Below, in pieces: positions 27,541-62,199 of a stretch of 64,000 nucleotides of DNA (its first letter is position 1; each line of letters begins with the position of its first letter). The notes under the pieces are model-generated. The model saw nothing but the letters and a program-made list of their open reading frames with translations, ran no database searches and was not told the DNA's origin. The stretch lies in NCBI RefSeq assembly GCF_016586165.1, contig NZ_BCPR01000018.1, forward strand, positions 1 through 64,000, written 5' to 3'. The position numbers and the translations under genes were made by a program. The DNA comes from Dyella sp. EPa41. GTDB lineage: Bacteria > Pseudomonadota > Gammaproteobacteria > Xanthomonadales > Rhodanobacteraceae.

Positions 27541-27906
27541 GCATGGCGCCTGGAAGCAGTCATGTGTTGATGAAATTGGCGAGGAAATTTCGAAGGGCGA
27601 CCGCAAGCCCCACCCCTCACCCCAGCCCTCTCCTCGCTCCTCATCGAAACGCCCGCTGCGTAGGCGGCAACCTAGCCGTGTCGCGACAGCCGAAGACTGT
27701 CGCTACTGGATCCCGGCCTACGCCGGGATGACGACCGTGGAGACTGTCGCGAAAGGATGTCGCGCACAGGGTGCGCTCCTACAGGGAGGCCAACCGCAAA
27801 CACGCGCCGTCACGGCGCGGGAGGATGAAAGCGGGGGCTCGATGTCGCGTGAAGCGACATTCGCCCAAAAAAAAGAAGGGCCGCCGAAGCGACCCTCCCT
27901 CAAACC
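27541..27906. repeat. Repeat-filled gap between glnD and map
   Basis: No gene is supported here. Three dispersed repeat families lie side by side. 27608-27633 is a C-rich half copy (CCCTCACCCCAGCCCTCTCC) of the palindrome found whole at 32326. 27706-27733 is a copy of the repeat also seen at 52619, 52771 and 52866. 27759-27784 is a single copy of the end of the 108-base repeat. A terminator for map occupies the last part (27866-27894). Confidence 0.7.
27866..27894 (-). terminator. Intrinsic terminator of map
   Basis: Read on the minus strand, GGGTCGC, a TTCG tetraloop and GCGGCCC form a 7-bp stem (one G-U pair), followed by TTC and eight T. In window coordinates the stem is 27877-27883 with 27888-27894. 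It lies just past the map stop codon at 27907. Confidence 0.8.
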
Positions 27907-33108: not shown

Positions 33109-33855
33109 ATGACCACCAGCGCCGATTCCGCGCGGATACCGCGCCACATTGCCATCGTGATGGATGGCAACGGCCGCTGGGCAAAGCTCCGCCACCGACC
33201 ACGCACCTTCGGCCACAACGCGGGCCGCAAGGCCGTGCGCAACGTGGTCGAGGGTTGCCTGCGCCAGGGCGTCAAAGTCCTCACCCTCTTCGCGTTTTCC
33301 AGCGAGAACTGGAAACGCCCCGAGGAAGAAGTCGGCGCCTTGATGGAACTGTTCGTGCGCGCGCTCGACAAGGAAGTGGACGAGCTGCACGGCAACGGCG
33401 TGCGCATCCGCTTCGTGGGCGACCTCAATGCATTCGACAATGGCCTGCGCCAGCGCATGACCGGGGCGATGGCCCGCACCGCCGGCAATGATGCGCTGCA
33501 CCTCAACATCGCGGTGAACTACGGCGGGCGCTGGGACATCGTCCAGGCGGCGCGCAAGGCCGCCGAAGCCGTGGCGCGCGGGGAACTGCGCGCCGACGAC
33601 ATCGACGAAAAGCTGCTGGGCCACTGGATGTGCCTGGCGGAGCTGCCGCCGCTGGACCTGTTCATCCGTACCGGCGGCGAATGCCGCGTGAGCAACTTCC
33701 TGTTGTGGCAACTGGCTTACGCCGAACTGCATTTCACCGATACCCTGTGGCCTGATTTCGACCAGGCGAGCCTCCAGCACGCCATCGACGATTACGCCCG
33801 CCGCGAACGCCGTTACGGCAAGACCGGCGAACAAGTCGCCCGCCAGGCCAACTGA
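33109..33855 (+). CDS. uppS: Undecaprenyl diphosphate synthase (di-trans,poly-cis)
   Basis: The 248-residue cis-prenyltransferase builds the C55 lipid carrier of peptidoglycan and LPS. The signature HIAIVMDGNGRWAK places the catalytic aspartate at residue 19. Other blocks are LTLFAFSSENWKRP, NIAVNYGGRWDI and LDLFIRTGGECRVSNFLLWQ. The stop codon's last base is also the first base of the non-coding element that fills the gap to cdsA, so here the usual tight uppS-cdsA link is broken by 330 bases. Confidence 0.96.
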   Translation: MTTSADSARIPRHIAIVMDGNGRWAKLRHRPRTFGHNAGRKAVRNVVEGCLRQGVKVLTLFAFSSENWKRPEEEVGALMELFVRALDKEVDELHGNGVRIRFVGDLNAFDNGLRQRMTGAMARTAGNDALHLNIAVNYGGRWDIVQAARKAAEAVARGELRADDIDEKLLGHWMCLAELPPLDLFIRTGGECRVSNFLLWQLAYAELHFTDTLWPDFDQASLQHAIDDYARRERRYGKTGEQVARQAN

Positions 33856-34175
33856 GAGCCTGCTCAATGTCCCCACGTAGCCCGCGTTGTTCATCCCAAG
33901 GCTCCAGCGAATGGATCGTGACGCCGCGCCTGGCTGGCCGTCAGGCCAAGTCGCGAGCCGCTCGCTGGAGCCTTGGCATGAACAACCCTTCCCCGCTCCT
34001 CAAAGCCGGCGCCATCCATGGCGCCTCCCCGCGCGCGGGCCGGGTCTGTTTGCTCACAGCCCGGCGCCATCACTCAGTCGTGTACGGACGTACACTCCAT
34101 CGTTCCATCGTTCTTCCTTGGTCTGCGCGCCAACAGCTCCCGGCGCGGGCCACGGGGGGACGTTGAACAGGCTCT
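33855..34175 (+). other. Structured non-coding element, copy A (upstream of cdsA)
   Basis: This 321-base element fills the whole gap from the uppS stop to the cdsA ribosome binding site. Its ends, 33855-33886 and 34144-34175, are complementary over 32 bases without gaps (28 Watson-Crick pairs and one G-U). Just inside, TTGTTCAT at 33887-33894 pairs with ATGAACAA at 33978-33985, and CCAAGGCTCCAGCGA at 33896-33910 with its complement at 33962-33976. GTGTAC/GTACAC at 34080-34095 is a small hairpin. A relative lies at 60907-61164 on the other strand, also just upstream of a start codon. It could be a structured RNA or a mobile palindromic element. No protein of it is credible. Confidence 0.75.
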
Positions 34176-52607: not shown

Positions 52608-53017
52608 CCCACCCAACCCGTCATTCCGGCGCAGGCCGGAATCCAGTTTCCGATACCTCCGTTGTCGCGGAAACGTCCAAAGGGGTTTTCGCGAGAACCG
52701 GACCCGCGCCCTACCCGGGATGGAGGCCGCCAAACTGCGCATCGTGAAGACAGGCGACCAACCCATCCCCCGTCATTCCGGCGCAGGCCGGAATCCAGTG
52801 GCCGATCCCGCCGGTTGTCGCGGAAGCATCCAAAGGAGTTTTCGCAAAACCGGTTACCTCCGCTGCTGGATTCCGGCCTGCGCCGGAATGACGGTCCTTT
52901 GCGGGCACCGCGTGCGTGAGGCTTCCTTCACGCTTTCCTCACTCCCATACGCCCCCGTTCCCGCGTTTTTTCCCGGCCCGGTATACTGGCGCGCTTCCGT
53001 GTCCTGAACTGCACCGA
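52608..53017. repeat. REP-like repeats and a dnaE tail copy between dnaE and accA
   Basis: This 410-base gap has three copies of a 28-base palindrome-type repeat (CGTCATTCCGGCGCAGG and its mate GCCGGAATCCAG). They lie at 52619-52646 and 52771-52798 on the plus strand and at 52866-52893 inverted. The last two face each other and enclose 67 bases, forming a REPIN-like unit. Between copies one and two, about 40 bases from 52721 repeat the end of dnaE (from 52549) with a few changes. A possible -10 box TATACT is at 52982-52987 before accA. Confidence 0.75.
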
Positions 53018-53998: not shown

Positions 53999-54366
53999 CT
54001 GTAGGAGCGCACCCTTGTGCGCGACAAGCCTACGCAGCGGCGACGCCACCGCACCGCGGTCGCCCACTGGGTGGGCTCCTACAAAAAAACGCGCCGCGCG
54101 CTTCACCTGTAGGAGCGCACCCAGTGCGCGACAAGCCTACGCAGCAGCAACGCCACCGCACCGTGGTCGCCCACTAGGTGGGCTCCTACAAAAAAAACGC
54201 GCCGCCCGCGCCCCCTGTAGGAGCGCACCCAGTGCGCGACAAGCCTACGCAGCAGCAACGCCAACGCGCCGCGGTCGCCCACTGGGTGGGCTCCTACAAA
54301 AAAAACGCGCCGCCCGCTTCACCTGTAGGAGCGCACCCAGTGCGCGACAAGCCTACGCAGCGGCGA
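53999..54366. repeat. Tandem REPIN array, 108-base period, after accA
   Basis: Units begin at 53999, 54107, 54215 and 54323, exactly 108 bases apart. The last is cut after 44 bases. Each full unit starts with TGTAGGAGCGCACCC and GTGCGCGAC, has a GC-rich centre (AAGCCTACGCAGC), and ends with GTCGCCCACTGGG and TGGGCTCCTACA. The end is the reverse complement of the beginning with only two changes per 25 bases. A run of seven or eight A follows each unit. This resembles REPIN elements of Pseudomonas, which need a RAYT transposase encoded elsewhere. None is in the window. Confidence 0.85.
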
Positions 54367-54473
54367 GACCACTACCCCCACCTCCCCATTTCGAAGGCAA
54401 AGCCTCGCCCCCCTCACCGCCCGGTCACGCCGCCGCGCTACCATCCATGGCATCTCCGCCAGGGAAACGCGAC

Positions 54474-57751: not shown

Positions 57752-58100
57752 CTGGTTGCGGGGGCGCACCCTGGGCGCGACAAGCCTACGCAGCGGCAAC
57801 GCCACCGCGCCGCGGTCGCCCACTGGGTGGGCTCCTACAACAAAAGCGCCGCCCGCTTCCCCTGTAGGAGCGCACCCTGTGCGCGACAAGCCTACACAGC
57901 GGCAACGCCACCGCGCCGCGGTCGCCCACTGGGTGGGCTCCTACAAAAAAAGCGCCGCCCGCTTCCCCTGTAGGAGCGCACCCTGTGCGCGACAAGCCTA
58001 CGCAGCGGTAACACCACGACGCCGCGGTCGCCCACTGGGTGGGCTCCTATAAAAAAAGGCGCCGCCCCCTCACCTGTAGGAGCGCACCCGGTGCGCGATC
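57752..58100. repeat. Tandem REPIN array, 106-base period, after ispA
   Basis: This is a second array of the family at 53999. The first unit is degenerate at its left end (57752). Good units start at 57862 and 57968, with a truncated one at 58074, giving a period of 106. Left end (TGTAGGAGCGCACCC), right end (TGGGCTCCTACA) and A-tract are the same as in the other array. It lies between ispA and the Gly/His-rich gene. About 75 bases up to the next start (58177) hold no other signal that I can see. Confidence 0.85.
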
Positions 58101-58176
58101 GCAGTATCCGGAACTCCTGGTCAACAACGTCCGCACACAGACGTTTCCTGGGGGAACCTCCGCTGACGCCCCGTCG

Positions 58177-59535: not shown

Positions 59536-60888
59536 CTACTCGCCGGCGATCGTCATCTGTTCCAGCAGGATCGAGCCGGTGAGGATGTGCGAGCGCGGGT
59601 CCACGTCGGCGCCGACGGCCACGATGTTGGCGTACATGTCGCGCAGGTTCGCCGCGATGGTGATCTCCTCCACCGGATAGGCGAGCTGCCCGTTTTCCAC
59701 CCAGAAGCCGGCCGCGCCGCGCGAGTAGTCGCCCGTCACGGTGGACACGCCCTGCCCCATCACTTCGGTCACCAGCAGGCCGGTGCCCATGCGCTTGAGC
59801 ATCGCGGCGAAATCGTCCTGGCCGCCTTCGACGATCAGGTTGTGGACGCCACCCGCGTTGCCGGTCGATTCCAGGCCGAGCTTGCGGGCCGAATAGCTGC
59901 CCAGCACGTAGCGCGCCAGCACGCCGTTCTCCACCAGCGCACTGTCGCGCGTCGCCACGCCCTCGGCGTCGAACGCGCTGGAACCCTGTCCGCGCATCAG
60001 GAACGGGCGTTCCACGATATTCAGCCACGAGGGCATGACCTGCTTGCCGGCATGATCGAGCAGGAAGCTGGCGCGACGGTACAGCGCGCCGCCGCTTACC
60101 GCGCCGATGAAATGGCCGATCAGGCCCCGTGCCACTTCCGGCGCGAACATCACCGGGCATTGCCGCGTGGAAAGGCTGCGCGCTCCCATGCGGGACAAGG
60201 TCCGCTGCGCCGCCTTGTCGCCCAGCGCCGCCGCGCTCATGAAATCGTCGGCGGAGCGCACGCTGTCGTACCAGTAGTCGCGTTGCATGCCCTCTTCGTC
60301 ACCAGCGATCAGCGAGAGCGACAGCGAATGGCGGGTGCCGCGCTCGCGTCCCAGGAAACCATGCGAATTGGCGTAGACCGCGATGGCCTCGCCCATCTGC
60401 ACGCTGGCGCCGTCGGAATGGGTGATGCCGGCGTGGCTGCGGCCGGCGTCCTCGATCTGCTTGCCCAGCGCGATCGCACCCTCGGTGTCGATGCGCCACG
60501 GATGCCACAGGTCCAGGTCGGGGAACTGGGTGGCCATGCGCGCGGCATCGGCCAGGCCGGCGGCCTCGTCTTCCTCGGTATAGCGGGCGATCGCGCAAGC
60601 CTGGTCCAGCGTGGCCTGGATCGAACCGGGGTTGAGGTCGGCGGTGCTGGCCGAGCCCTTGCGCTTGCCGAAATACACGGTGAGGCCGAAACCGCGGTCG
60701 CGCGTATGCTCCACCGTCTCCACCTCGCCCAGGCGCACGTTCACGTTCAACCCGGTGTCGATGCTGGCCGCCACCTCGGCCTGGCTGGCGCCGGCGGCGC
60801 GGGCGCGGCGGATCACGTCCTCGGCCAGTTGGGCCAGTCGATCGAGTTCTTCGAGGCTGCGGTCCTGGGTGGGGCTGAGTTCGGTCAC
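59536..60888 (-). CDS. pmbA: Metalloprotease subunit PmbA (TldE)
   Basis: The 450-residue protein is the usual length. TldD and TldE form a heterodimer that clips peptides, for example in microcin maturation and antitoxin decay. TldE has no HExxH zinc motif of its own, and none is seen here. The family blocks are TGLNVNVRLGEVETVEHTRD, SRGAAGFWVENGQLAYPVEE and ANLRDMYANIVAVGADVDPR. The start is a GTG at 60886-60888, with AGGA nearby. Copy B of the non-coding element ends 18 bases upstream. yjgA (darP) is close, as in E. coli. Confidence 0.94.
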   Translation of the reverse strand: MTELSPTQDRSLEELDRLAQLAEDVIRRARAAGASQAEVAASIDTGLNVNVRLGEVETVEHTRDRGFGLTVYFGKRKGSASTADLNPGSIQATLDQACAIARYTEEDEAAGLADAARMATQFPDLDLWHPWRIDTEGAIALGKQIEDAGRSHAGITHSDGASVQMGEAIAVYANSHGFLGRERGTRHSLSLSLIAGDEEGMQRDYWYDSVRSADDFMSAAALGDKAAQRTLSRMGARSLSTRQCPVMFAPEVARGLIGHFIGAVSGGALYRRASFLLDHAGKQVMPSWLNIVERPFLMRGQGSSAFDAEGVATRDSALVENGVLARYVLGSYSARKLGLESTGNAGGVHNLIVEGGQDDFAAMLKRMGTGLLVTEVMGQGVSTVTGDYSRGAAGFWVENGQLAYPVEEITIAANLRDMYANIVAVGADVDPRSHILTGSILLEQMTIAGE

Positions 60889-60906: not shown

Positions 60907-61164
60907 AGAGTCTGGTTCGTGTCTTGCTGCAGCCCGTGCCGGGAGCTGTTTGCTTGCCTGCCGGGGAAGAGCGGGGGAGTGTATGTCAATGCACGACTAT
61001 GAGATGACGCCGGCTGGCGGGCAAACAGGCCCTGCCCGAAGGGTTTGCCGCCCAGGGCACCCATGCCGGCGCCCCGAGGCTTGACCCGAGGGCCAGCCAG
61101 GCGCTGCGCCACGAAACATTCGCATGGGCAAACGCGGACCACAGGAAGGCACGAACCAGGCTCC
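60907..61164 (-). other. Structured non-coding element, copy B (upstream of pmbA)
   Basis: Read on the minus strand, this 258-base element has 5' and 3' ends (61164-61133 and 60938-60907) complementary over 32 bases without gaps. There are 24 Watson-Crick and four G-U pairs. Inside, GTTTGCC at 61133-61127 pairs with GGCAAAC at 61049-61043, CTGTTTGC at 61028-61021 with GCAAACAG at 60953-60946, and GTGCAT with ATACAC at 60994-60979. It aligns with copy A (33855-34175) through GCGCCTGGCTGGCC, CTGTTTGC and AACAGCTCCCGGC. The paired ends differ between copies but keep pairing. No protein is credible. Confidence 0.75.
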
Positions 61165-62117: not shown

Positions 62118-62125
62118 GGTCGCCT

Positions 62126-62190
62126 GATCGCGCACTGGGTGCGCTCCTACATCAGCTCCCCACCTGTAGGAGCGCACCCAGTGCGCGATC
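62126..62190. repeat. REPIN-type perfect hairpin after yjgA
   Basis: 62126-62151 and 62165-62190 are exact reverse complements over 26 bases (GATCGCGCACTGGG and TGCGCTCCTACA against TGTAGGAGCGCACCC). They are separated by 13 bases. This is the end sequence of the 108-base repeat, here as a compact pair in the opposite order. It separates convergent genes and may stop transcription from both sides. Confidence 0.8.
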
Positions 62191-62199
62191 GGACCCGCA

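Follow-up and report, generated by a model that had tools for sequence, protein, structure and literature searches.

Two copies of a structured, non-coding element lie in the window, a stretch of 64,000 nucleotides from Dyella sp. EPa41, each just before the start of a gene. An earlier note, made from the letters alone, had proposed that their G-U pairs and compensatory base changes favoured a conserved RNA over a plain mobile repeat. The question raised by this locus is whether the element is a leader RNA of the genes it precedes or a piece of mobile DNA, and what keeps its stems paired while their sequence changes.

Both copies were found as described, with the four shared strings occurring once in each and in the same order. 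The ungapped arms of 32 nt gave the same pair counts as before, with 28 Watson-Crick pairs and one G-U in copy 1, where two A-C and one other mismatch complete the arm, and 24 Watson-Crick pairs and four G-U in copy 2, completed by three A-C and one other mismatch. In two tests, no dinucleotide shuffle folded as well (0/100, z -11.4, and 0/200, z -3.1). The whole window was scanned with Rfam, and neither copy matched a family at the gathering score; permissive scans with copy 1 and with the related copy L003 gave seven matches each, far below threshold and mostly to miRNA hairpin models. The sole gathering-level match of the window is an ordinary t44 RNA (RF00127, 28853-28967, 59.6 bits). The features of both copies are collected in the table.

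Table. Features of the two element copies in the window (positions are those of the whole window)
Feature	Position	Strand	Context or evidence
Element copy 1	33855..34175	+	Gap between uppS and cdsA (gene names from the earlier, sequence-only note)
Copy 1 borders	uppS stop TGA 33853-33855; cdsA ATG 34186		
Copy 1 P1 5' arm, terminal inverted repeat AGAGCCTG...	33855..33886	+	Pairs with 34144-34175
Copy 1 P1 3' arm ...CAGGCTCT	34144..34175	+	Pairs with 33855..33886
Copy 1 P2, hypervariable inner hairpin with conserved tip GCGCCTGGCTGGCC at 33926	33886..33986	+	Inverted repeat and consensus structure
Foreign hairpin unit in copy 1 (GGCGCCATCCATGGCGCC)	33992..34035 (approximate)	+	Missing from 56 full copies
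Copy 1 P3 domain with conserved core	34035..34147	+	R1 match of 90.7 bits; core alignment of related copies
Element copy 2	60907..61164	-	Upstream of an open frame with GTG start at 60888 (pmbA according to the earlier note)
Copy 2 P1 5' arm	61133..61164	-	Pairs with 60907..60938
Copy 2 P1 3' arm	60907..60938	-	Pairs with 61133..61164
Copy 2 P3 domain	60935..61039	-	R1 match of 96.2 bits

Each of the two copies has been altered internally. Copy 1 contains an insertion of about 44 nt between both inner hairpins, which is a piece of another dispersed hairpin repeat, and part of its inner stems is therefore foreign. In copy 2, one inner arm is short of about 12 nt that are present in the relative occupying the same site in genome G044. 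With copy 1 as query, the EPa41 genome gave 48 matches, 24 of which consist only of the unrelated repeat inside it; 12 of these 24 places were read. Several of the places matching the hairpin unit GGCGCCATCCATGGCGCC lie near contig ends, and in one copy (L002) this unit replaces P2. Other repeats are present in the window as well: two arrays of units of about 107 nt with CCTGTAGGAGCGCACCCNGTGCGCGACAAGCCTACGCAG (54005-54372 and 57761-58101), single stretches related to these arrays near 27744 and at 62119-62191, and, at 52617-52894, a REP-like-looking set of repeats, some direct and some inverted, based on CCCGTCATTCCGGCGCAGGCCGGAATCCAG.

Full copies of the element measure about 268 nt and fold as a three-way junction: the outer arms, of about 31 bp, form P1, the long hairpin P2 has a hypervariable stem and a conserved tip, and the stem P3 contains a core conserved around GTGTATCGACATACAC. 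The statistics on full copies exclude short or decayed ones (81 of 97 were kept), and 56 were picked for structural alignment. In these 56, pairing is found in 97.7% of cells, against 79.1% after shuffling and 33-41% with slid partners, and in 98.0% of cells for the 30 pairs of P1, the terminal inverted repeats. Double changes affect 77 of the 100 pairs and amount to 1001 cells, against 253 in shuffled alignments. None of 500 shuffles reached the observed values, whichever measure is taken; the shuffle ignores the relatedness of the copies, and with that reservation the compensatory changes reported earlier are genuine. Conservation is at its maximum in the P2 tip and the P3 core and variation in P1 and the outer part of P2; in G019, a genome of another genus, the P3 stem has a different sequence with its pairing kept.

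The distribution of the element was followed with R1, a covariance model built from 43 sequences of the inner domain. In the EPa41 genome R1 gave 30 rows, made of 23 strong copies, one weak further place and six opposite-strand echoes. Across the family, at least 112 of 233 genomes and at least 17 of 26 genera were matched, the copy numbers being those of the best 17 candidates scored per genome. An exact scan of public genomes for the core returned 34 stretches, mostly from Dyella, the others being from Rhodanobacter, Luteimonas gilva and two MAGs without genus. Phages, plasmids and viral contigs gave no match with one copy as query or in an exact-pattern scan. No gene-bearing copy was seen among those read, the element having no gene in its 268 nt or so, and no description of the family was apparent in a limited search of the literature.

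The junction between uppS and cdsA provided the first comparison of filled and empty sites. A match to cdsA was found in 223 of 230 genomes, and the junction was read at 30 loci: 28 are without the element, one is that of copy 1 and one, in G087, holds an apparent decayed copy. The two nearest relatives present at this place CCAACT/AAGGACCCGCATG (CCAACT/AAGG), and the element of EPa41 sits between the two halves, so that the uppS stop changes from TAA to TGA and AAGGA remains downstream. The decayed, element-like sequence of G087 (L179), which belongs to another genus, lies at the identical junction and is perhaps an independent insertion, hinting at a preferred target where a stop codon and a Shine-Dalgarno sequence overlap. 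Among the 28 empty junctions, L166, L167 and L172 have about 30 nt just upstream of cdsA with a stretch like CCATGTCTCCAC that resembles the P1 arm; judged by their letters, these stretches like CCATGTCTCCACAAGG in the uppS-cdsA gap may be remnants of the element.

The same picture was obtained at each of 14 further sites of the EPa41 genome, copy 2 included: for every site, at least one of four relatives has the two flanks joined directly; 30 matched places, at 11 of these 14 sites, were read. The site of copy 2 is contiguous in G051, G049 and G054 and filled in G044. At several sites the joined flanks differ from the empty site by a few bases, and the exact ends of the element are therefore uncertain. 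Four sites, that of copy 2 among them, are common to EPa41 and one relative and could be aligned, a fifth shared-looking site turned out to be a different insertion and a sixth was not alignable. At the site of the EPa41 copy L023, the relative's locus L218 (G051:C1:1113000-1115700) holds an insertion of another kind, which has a CCGTCATTCCGGCGCAGGCCGGAAT-type repeat.

In G019, about 20 copies that are nearly identical stand between unlike flanks; 19 of them read as 269 nt, and the set is a recent burst. Compared with their consensus, the 19 copies present 35 one-side differences at paired positions, 14 differences at unpaired positions and none affecting both partners, these numbers being cells rather than events, several of them common to many copies. 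One composite copy (L301, G019:C1:1496500-1498100) has an extra partial element on its 5' side, with 392 nt between the outer ends. Mobility of the element is nearly certain, and the preference for a conserved RNA over a mobile repeat does not stand in view of the 23 strong copies of EPa41, the empty sites, the burst in G019 and the signal of 3-bp TNA duplications described below. The traits that the earlier note had expected of a MITE were recovered in part: scattered copies and a duplication signal were found, near-identical copies only in G019, and the covariation is strong, not absent.

What maintains the complementarity of the arms was studied through the kinds of changes they have accumulated. 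In the 45 pairs of P1 and outer P2, the 81 full copies present 54 G-T against 51 A-C mismatches (p = 0.85). Compensated pairs between nearest copies comprise 189 transitions and 155 transversions (155/344, 45%), a ratio close to that of the 345 and 253 at unpaired sites; each copy was compared with its nearest neighbour, so that reciprocal pairs count twice, 70 of the 81 copies had a neighbour within 20% and many counts rest on related sequences. RNA selection on these stems is disfavoured because an excess of G-U over A-C would be expected, yet the two are equal, and compensation does not seem to take a route through G-U because such a passage would suppress transversions. The argument for RNA drawn previously from G-U pairs and compensation consequently fails for the arms. 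A mechanism in which a hairpin is corrected by template switching has been proposed (PMC8794818). The symmetry of the mismatches and the spectrum of the compensated changes suggest that the arm covariation likely arises in this manner, at the DNA level, and not from RNA selection.

The strongest competitor is that arm pairing is kept by selection alone, acting on an RNA fold or on a DNA palindrome needed for transposition, with no correction by template switching, and we regard it as rather unlikely though worth weighing. It accounts for the occurrence of compensated pairs between copies at the same site as well as between sites, and for the young copies of G019, in which 35 one-side differences against no both-side one (counted as cells) indicate that correction is not immediate. 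The uncompensated changes of the arms, 112 transitions and 30 transversions, are also mostly GU or AC (65 GU, 50 AC and 27 other), from which it follows that mismatches of a strongly disruptive kind are either less well tolerated or more quickly removed and that the type of mismatch is not wholly neutral; this speaks against a simple copying model. Single and compensated changes are both present in thirteen same-site copy pairs from different species, one of which (L004/L215) has six GU-type changes and no AC-type change. Selection for an RNA fold is nevertheless contradicted by the 54 GT against 51 AC and by the 155 transversions among 344 compensations, and selection for a perfect palindrome by the P1 mismatches of the recently spread G019 copies. 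Returning to template switching, we infer that one arm is corrected by the other during DNA synthesis, with some selection added.

Part of the interior behaves in the opposite way. In distal P2, 309 G-T face 22 A-C mismatches, and at four positions the wobble is the commonest pair, the reverse of what is seen in the arms. The asymmetry is small or absent in P3, with 14 G-T and 7 A-C in the stem and 8 and 9 at the tip. The loop columns of the conserved interior are invariant in the full-copy alignment. By this measure distal P2 appears to be strand-specific, although its wobbles may reflect conserved sequence instead of pairing. The sense strand folds better by a mean of 4.4 kcal/mol (67 of 101 copies), and flanking control DNA shows a weaker shift in the same direction (2.3 kcal/mol, 66 of 115), so that the fold offers weak support for a strand-specific role.

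The placement of copies relative to genes gives a second view of their orientation. Context genes were called from the open frame and GC3 only, and some same-site copies of different species were counted separately. Among the 117 copies outside G019, starts within 30 nt number 45 on the 3' side and 13 on the 5' side (p = 3e-5), and all starts together 65 and 45 (p = 0.07), no call being obtained on the 3' side of 20 copies and on the 5' side of 25. Where upstream stops were called, 16 of 30 lie 0-8 nt before the 5' end of the element. From the bias of 45 versus 13 it follows that retained copies lie preferentially in sense in intergenic gaps, and the sense-strand placement just before gene starts noticed for the two window copies is borne out. 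The G019 burst has no such pattern, with one start against none within 30 nt, and in 15 of its 40 flanks the call was an open frame that extends into the element.

A predicted RNA function of the interior is plausible. It could be argued instead that the interior has no function and is conserved only through the recent common ancestry of the copies, since these are related by transposition and both window copies are partly decayed. We consider this improbable: across genera the best-kept parts are the P2 tip and the P3 core, whereas P1, outer P2 and the P3 stem of G019 have been replaced with pairing kept. A small reverse-strand frame in the core was dropped after reading the alignment, its stop codon being lost in GGT variants, and so was an attC-like site, the core-site arrangement of attC being the reverse of that of the element.

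The ends of the element and their targets point to the machinery that would move a MITE-like element of this kind. The copies of G019 sit as C[TAGGGCGTG...CACGCCCTA]G, with C before TAGGGC in 18 of 19 copies and G after GCCCTA in 19 of 19; TA is present at both ends in 17 of the 17 parsed copies and could belong to the element. In 93 other copies whose ends could be parsed, the three bases adjoining GAGCC are TAA, TGA or TTA in at least 39 cases on the left and at least 46 on the right. Exact 3-bp direct repeats flank 17 of these 93 copies against 7.3 after shuffling (0 of 3000 shuffles as high), 76 having no exact 3-bp duplication, and there is no excess of 2-bp or 4-bp repeats. Several lengths and offsets were tried in this test, 3 bp being the clearest, and it kept 93 of the 117 copies outside G019, the others being without a flank or without pairing terminal 5-mers.

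A degraded fragment of an IS5-type transposase present in G019 (with a PF01609 score of only 22.7 bits) served as query for plasmid relatives, and 11 insertion sequences were examined. Four of them carry TAGGG(C/T)GTGTC(A/G)TCA at both ends, as does the G019 element. The Acinetobacter plasmid insertion sequence has TAGGGCGTGTCATCAAT in common with the G019 copies, with 17 terminal bases identical, and those from plasmids of Acidovorax, Azospirillum and Psychrobacter depart from it by one or two bases, at a single end or at both. The fifth, from Leptolyngbya, presents GCGTGTCATCAATT preceded by TTAGA; three start with CTAGGGCCTGTT (Methylosinus), CTAGGCCGTAG and TAAGGCTTGTT; in a further one the repeat is of another kind (AGGCTCAGGACCCAT), and the last two gave no clear ends. 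A subset of the elements (L140, L152, L228 and L070) has ends resembling CTAGGGCCTGTT, and the Dyella-type end GAGCCTGTTC, which is that of the window, has a partial match only, to the same Methylosinus CTAGGGCCTGTT. In PMC2516522, IS1237 (IS5 family, IS427 group) is given an inverted repeat GAGGTGGTTTCAG, starting with GAG, and a direct repeat TTA/TAA.

Searches for the enzyme itself gave another result. PF01609 had no match in the EPa41 genome, of which 20 small contigs lay outside the search, or in the copy-rich G059, and it matched in G018, G020, G193 and G198, which have no copies, so that the presence of the transposase does not track copy number. Within the same limits no mobilising transposase was found in EPa41. 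G019 showed no autonomous copy sharing these ends; the lone end matches that were read there are decayed or chance in look, one of them (2204006) lying about 1.6 kb from the degraded transposase fragment. Mobilisation by the IS5 family is the best reading because the ends match those of IS5-type insertion sequences, the flanks are TNA or CTAG and the repeat is like that of IS1237. From these comparisons of ends, the putative link to IS5 is strong where the ends are of the G019 type and probable where they are of the Dyella type, and it is on this footing that we infer which transposase moves the element in EPa41.

That other machinery is at work, be it RAYT/Y1 as for REP sequences, a reverse transcriptase or an IS630-type transposase, is distinctly improbable. 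The hairpin ends resemble REP-type substrates in outline, TA at both ends as in the G019 copies would fit IS630, and Y1_Tnp is present in the copy-rich G000, G059, G019 and G200 and RVT_1 in G056 and G201. With one Pfam model for each, however, Y1_Tnp is absent from the copy-rich G056, G207 and G201, RVT_1 from G000, G019, G207, G200 and G059, and DDE_3 from all five genomes searched (G019, G000, G207, G042 and G056), and absence from several copy-rich genomes makes each of them unlikely as the mobiliser.

The least likely reading, one to which we give very little credence, is that cdsA, pmbA and other genes are preceded by cis-acting leader RNAs of one stable family, akin to riboswitches or attenuators, whose stems are under RNA selection: the strong covariation, the sense position before starts (45 versus 13) and the one-strand G-U pairs of distal P2 agree with it, but 28 of the 30 uppS-cdsA junctions read lack the element, which rejects a fixed leader RNA of cdsA, each of the 14 other sites of EPa41 is empty in at least one of four relatives, the near-identical burst copies of G019 have unlike flanks, the arms have GT equal to AC and 45% transversions among compensations, and both window copies have suffered an insertion or a deletion.

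Comparison with known systems, based partly on the traits of the IS427, IS1031 and ISL2 groups of the IS5 family, helps to place the MITE-like element. Like IS5-family insertion sequences, it has inverted repeats starting with GAG or TAGGG and TNA or CTAG flanks; unlike them, IS1237 included, it has no transposase gene, measures about 268 nt and has outer arms of about 31 bp, and the conserved folded interior is its own, not being seen in the IS5-type insertion sequences read. REP and REPIN sequences with RAYT are also dispersed palindromic elements without genes, but the element is larger, forms a three-way junction, and the Y1 transposase is missing in three copy-rich genomes. MITEs are usually recognised by their conserved ends, and MITEAba12 is reportedly a bacterial example to be compared. 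The element differs from them in keeping its inside (P2 tip and P3 core) across genera while its ends change type. It shares with bacterial MITEs, as they are presented in PMC10969869, a short, non-coding sequence with inverted repeats, some direct repeats, many copies and a stable fold, and it is GC-rich to the eye whereas the same source gives MITEs as typically AT-rich. Finally, P1 and outer P2 would resemble the hairpins maintained by template switching of PMC8794818 in being compensated without G-U intermediates; that work concerns RNA genes, and here the mechanism would act on a mobile DNA element.

Taken together, the earlier reading of the element was partly supported, and we hold with reasonable confidence that both copies belong to a non-autonomous, MITE-like element that would be moved in trans by IS5-family DDE transposases, with upkeep of its arms at the DNA level and an interior working on one strand. 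The ends of P1 would act as terminal inverted repeats, with insertion at TNA or CTAG and the movement supplied in trans by the IS5-family enzymes. A change in one arm would be copied into the other during DNA replication, by template switching between the inverted repeats; this would be the main reason why the arms stay complementary, next to the need for two matching ends. The conserved interior (P2 tip and P3 core) would work on one strand, most likely as RNA, and copies landed in sense before start codons would fold into a compact leader tolerated by the neighbouring genes, and would hence be retained. More tentatively, and with doubt prevailing, the lasting identity of the family may be its folded, strand-specific RNA interior, predicted from the alignments, with exchangeable ends of the IS5 groups and stems evolving chiefly by template switching of DNA.

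A functional RNA is usually proved by its covariation, and the element is a caution for the discovery of RNAs by covariation alone. In one molecule, arms with strand-symmetric mismatches and nearly half transversions stand beside a hairpin with one-strand G-U pairs, which makes the element a natural test bed for the origin of compensatory changes, by selection or by template switching. If the more tentative reading is true, long stems can show strong compensatory covariation without RNA selection acting there, and lineages with inverted repeats of different IS5-family groups would ride on whichever transposase the host has. Our verdict is that of a MITE-like family, conserved inside and variable at its ends; it suggests that the ends of such an element can be exchanged while its inside is kept, and it adds to Dyella and its relatives a widespread mobile family often lodged between stop and start codons.
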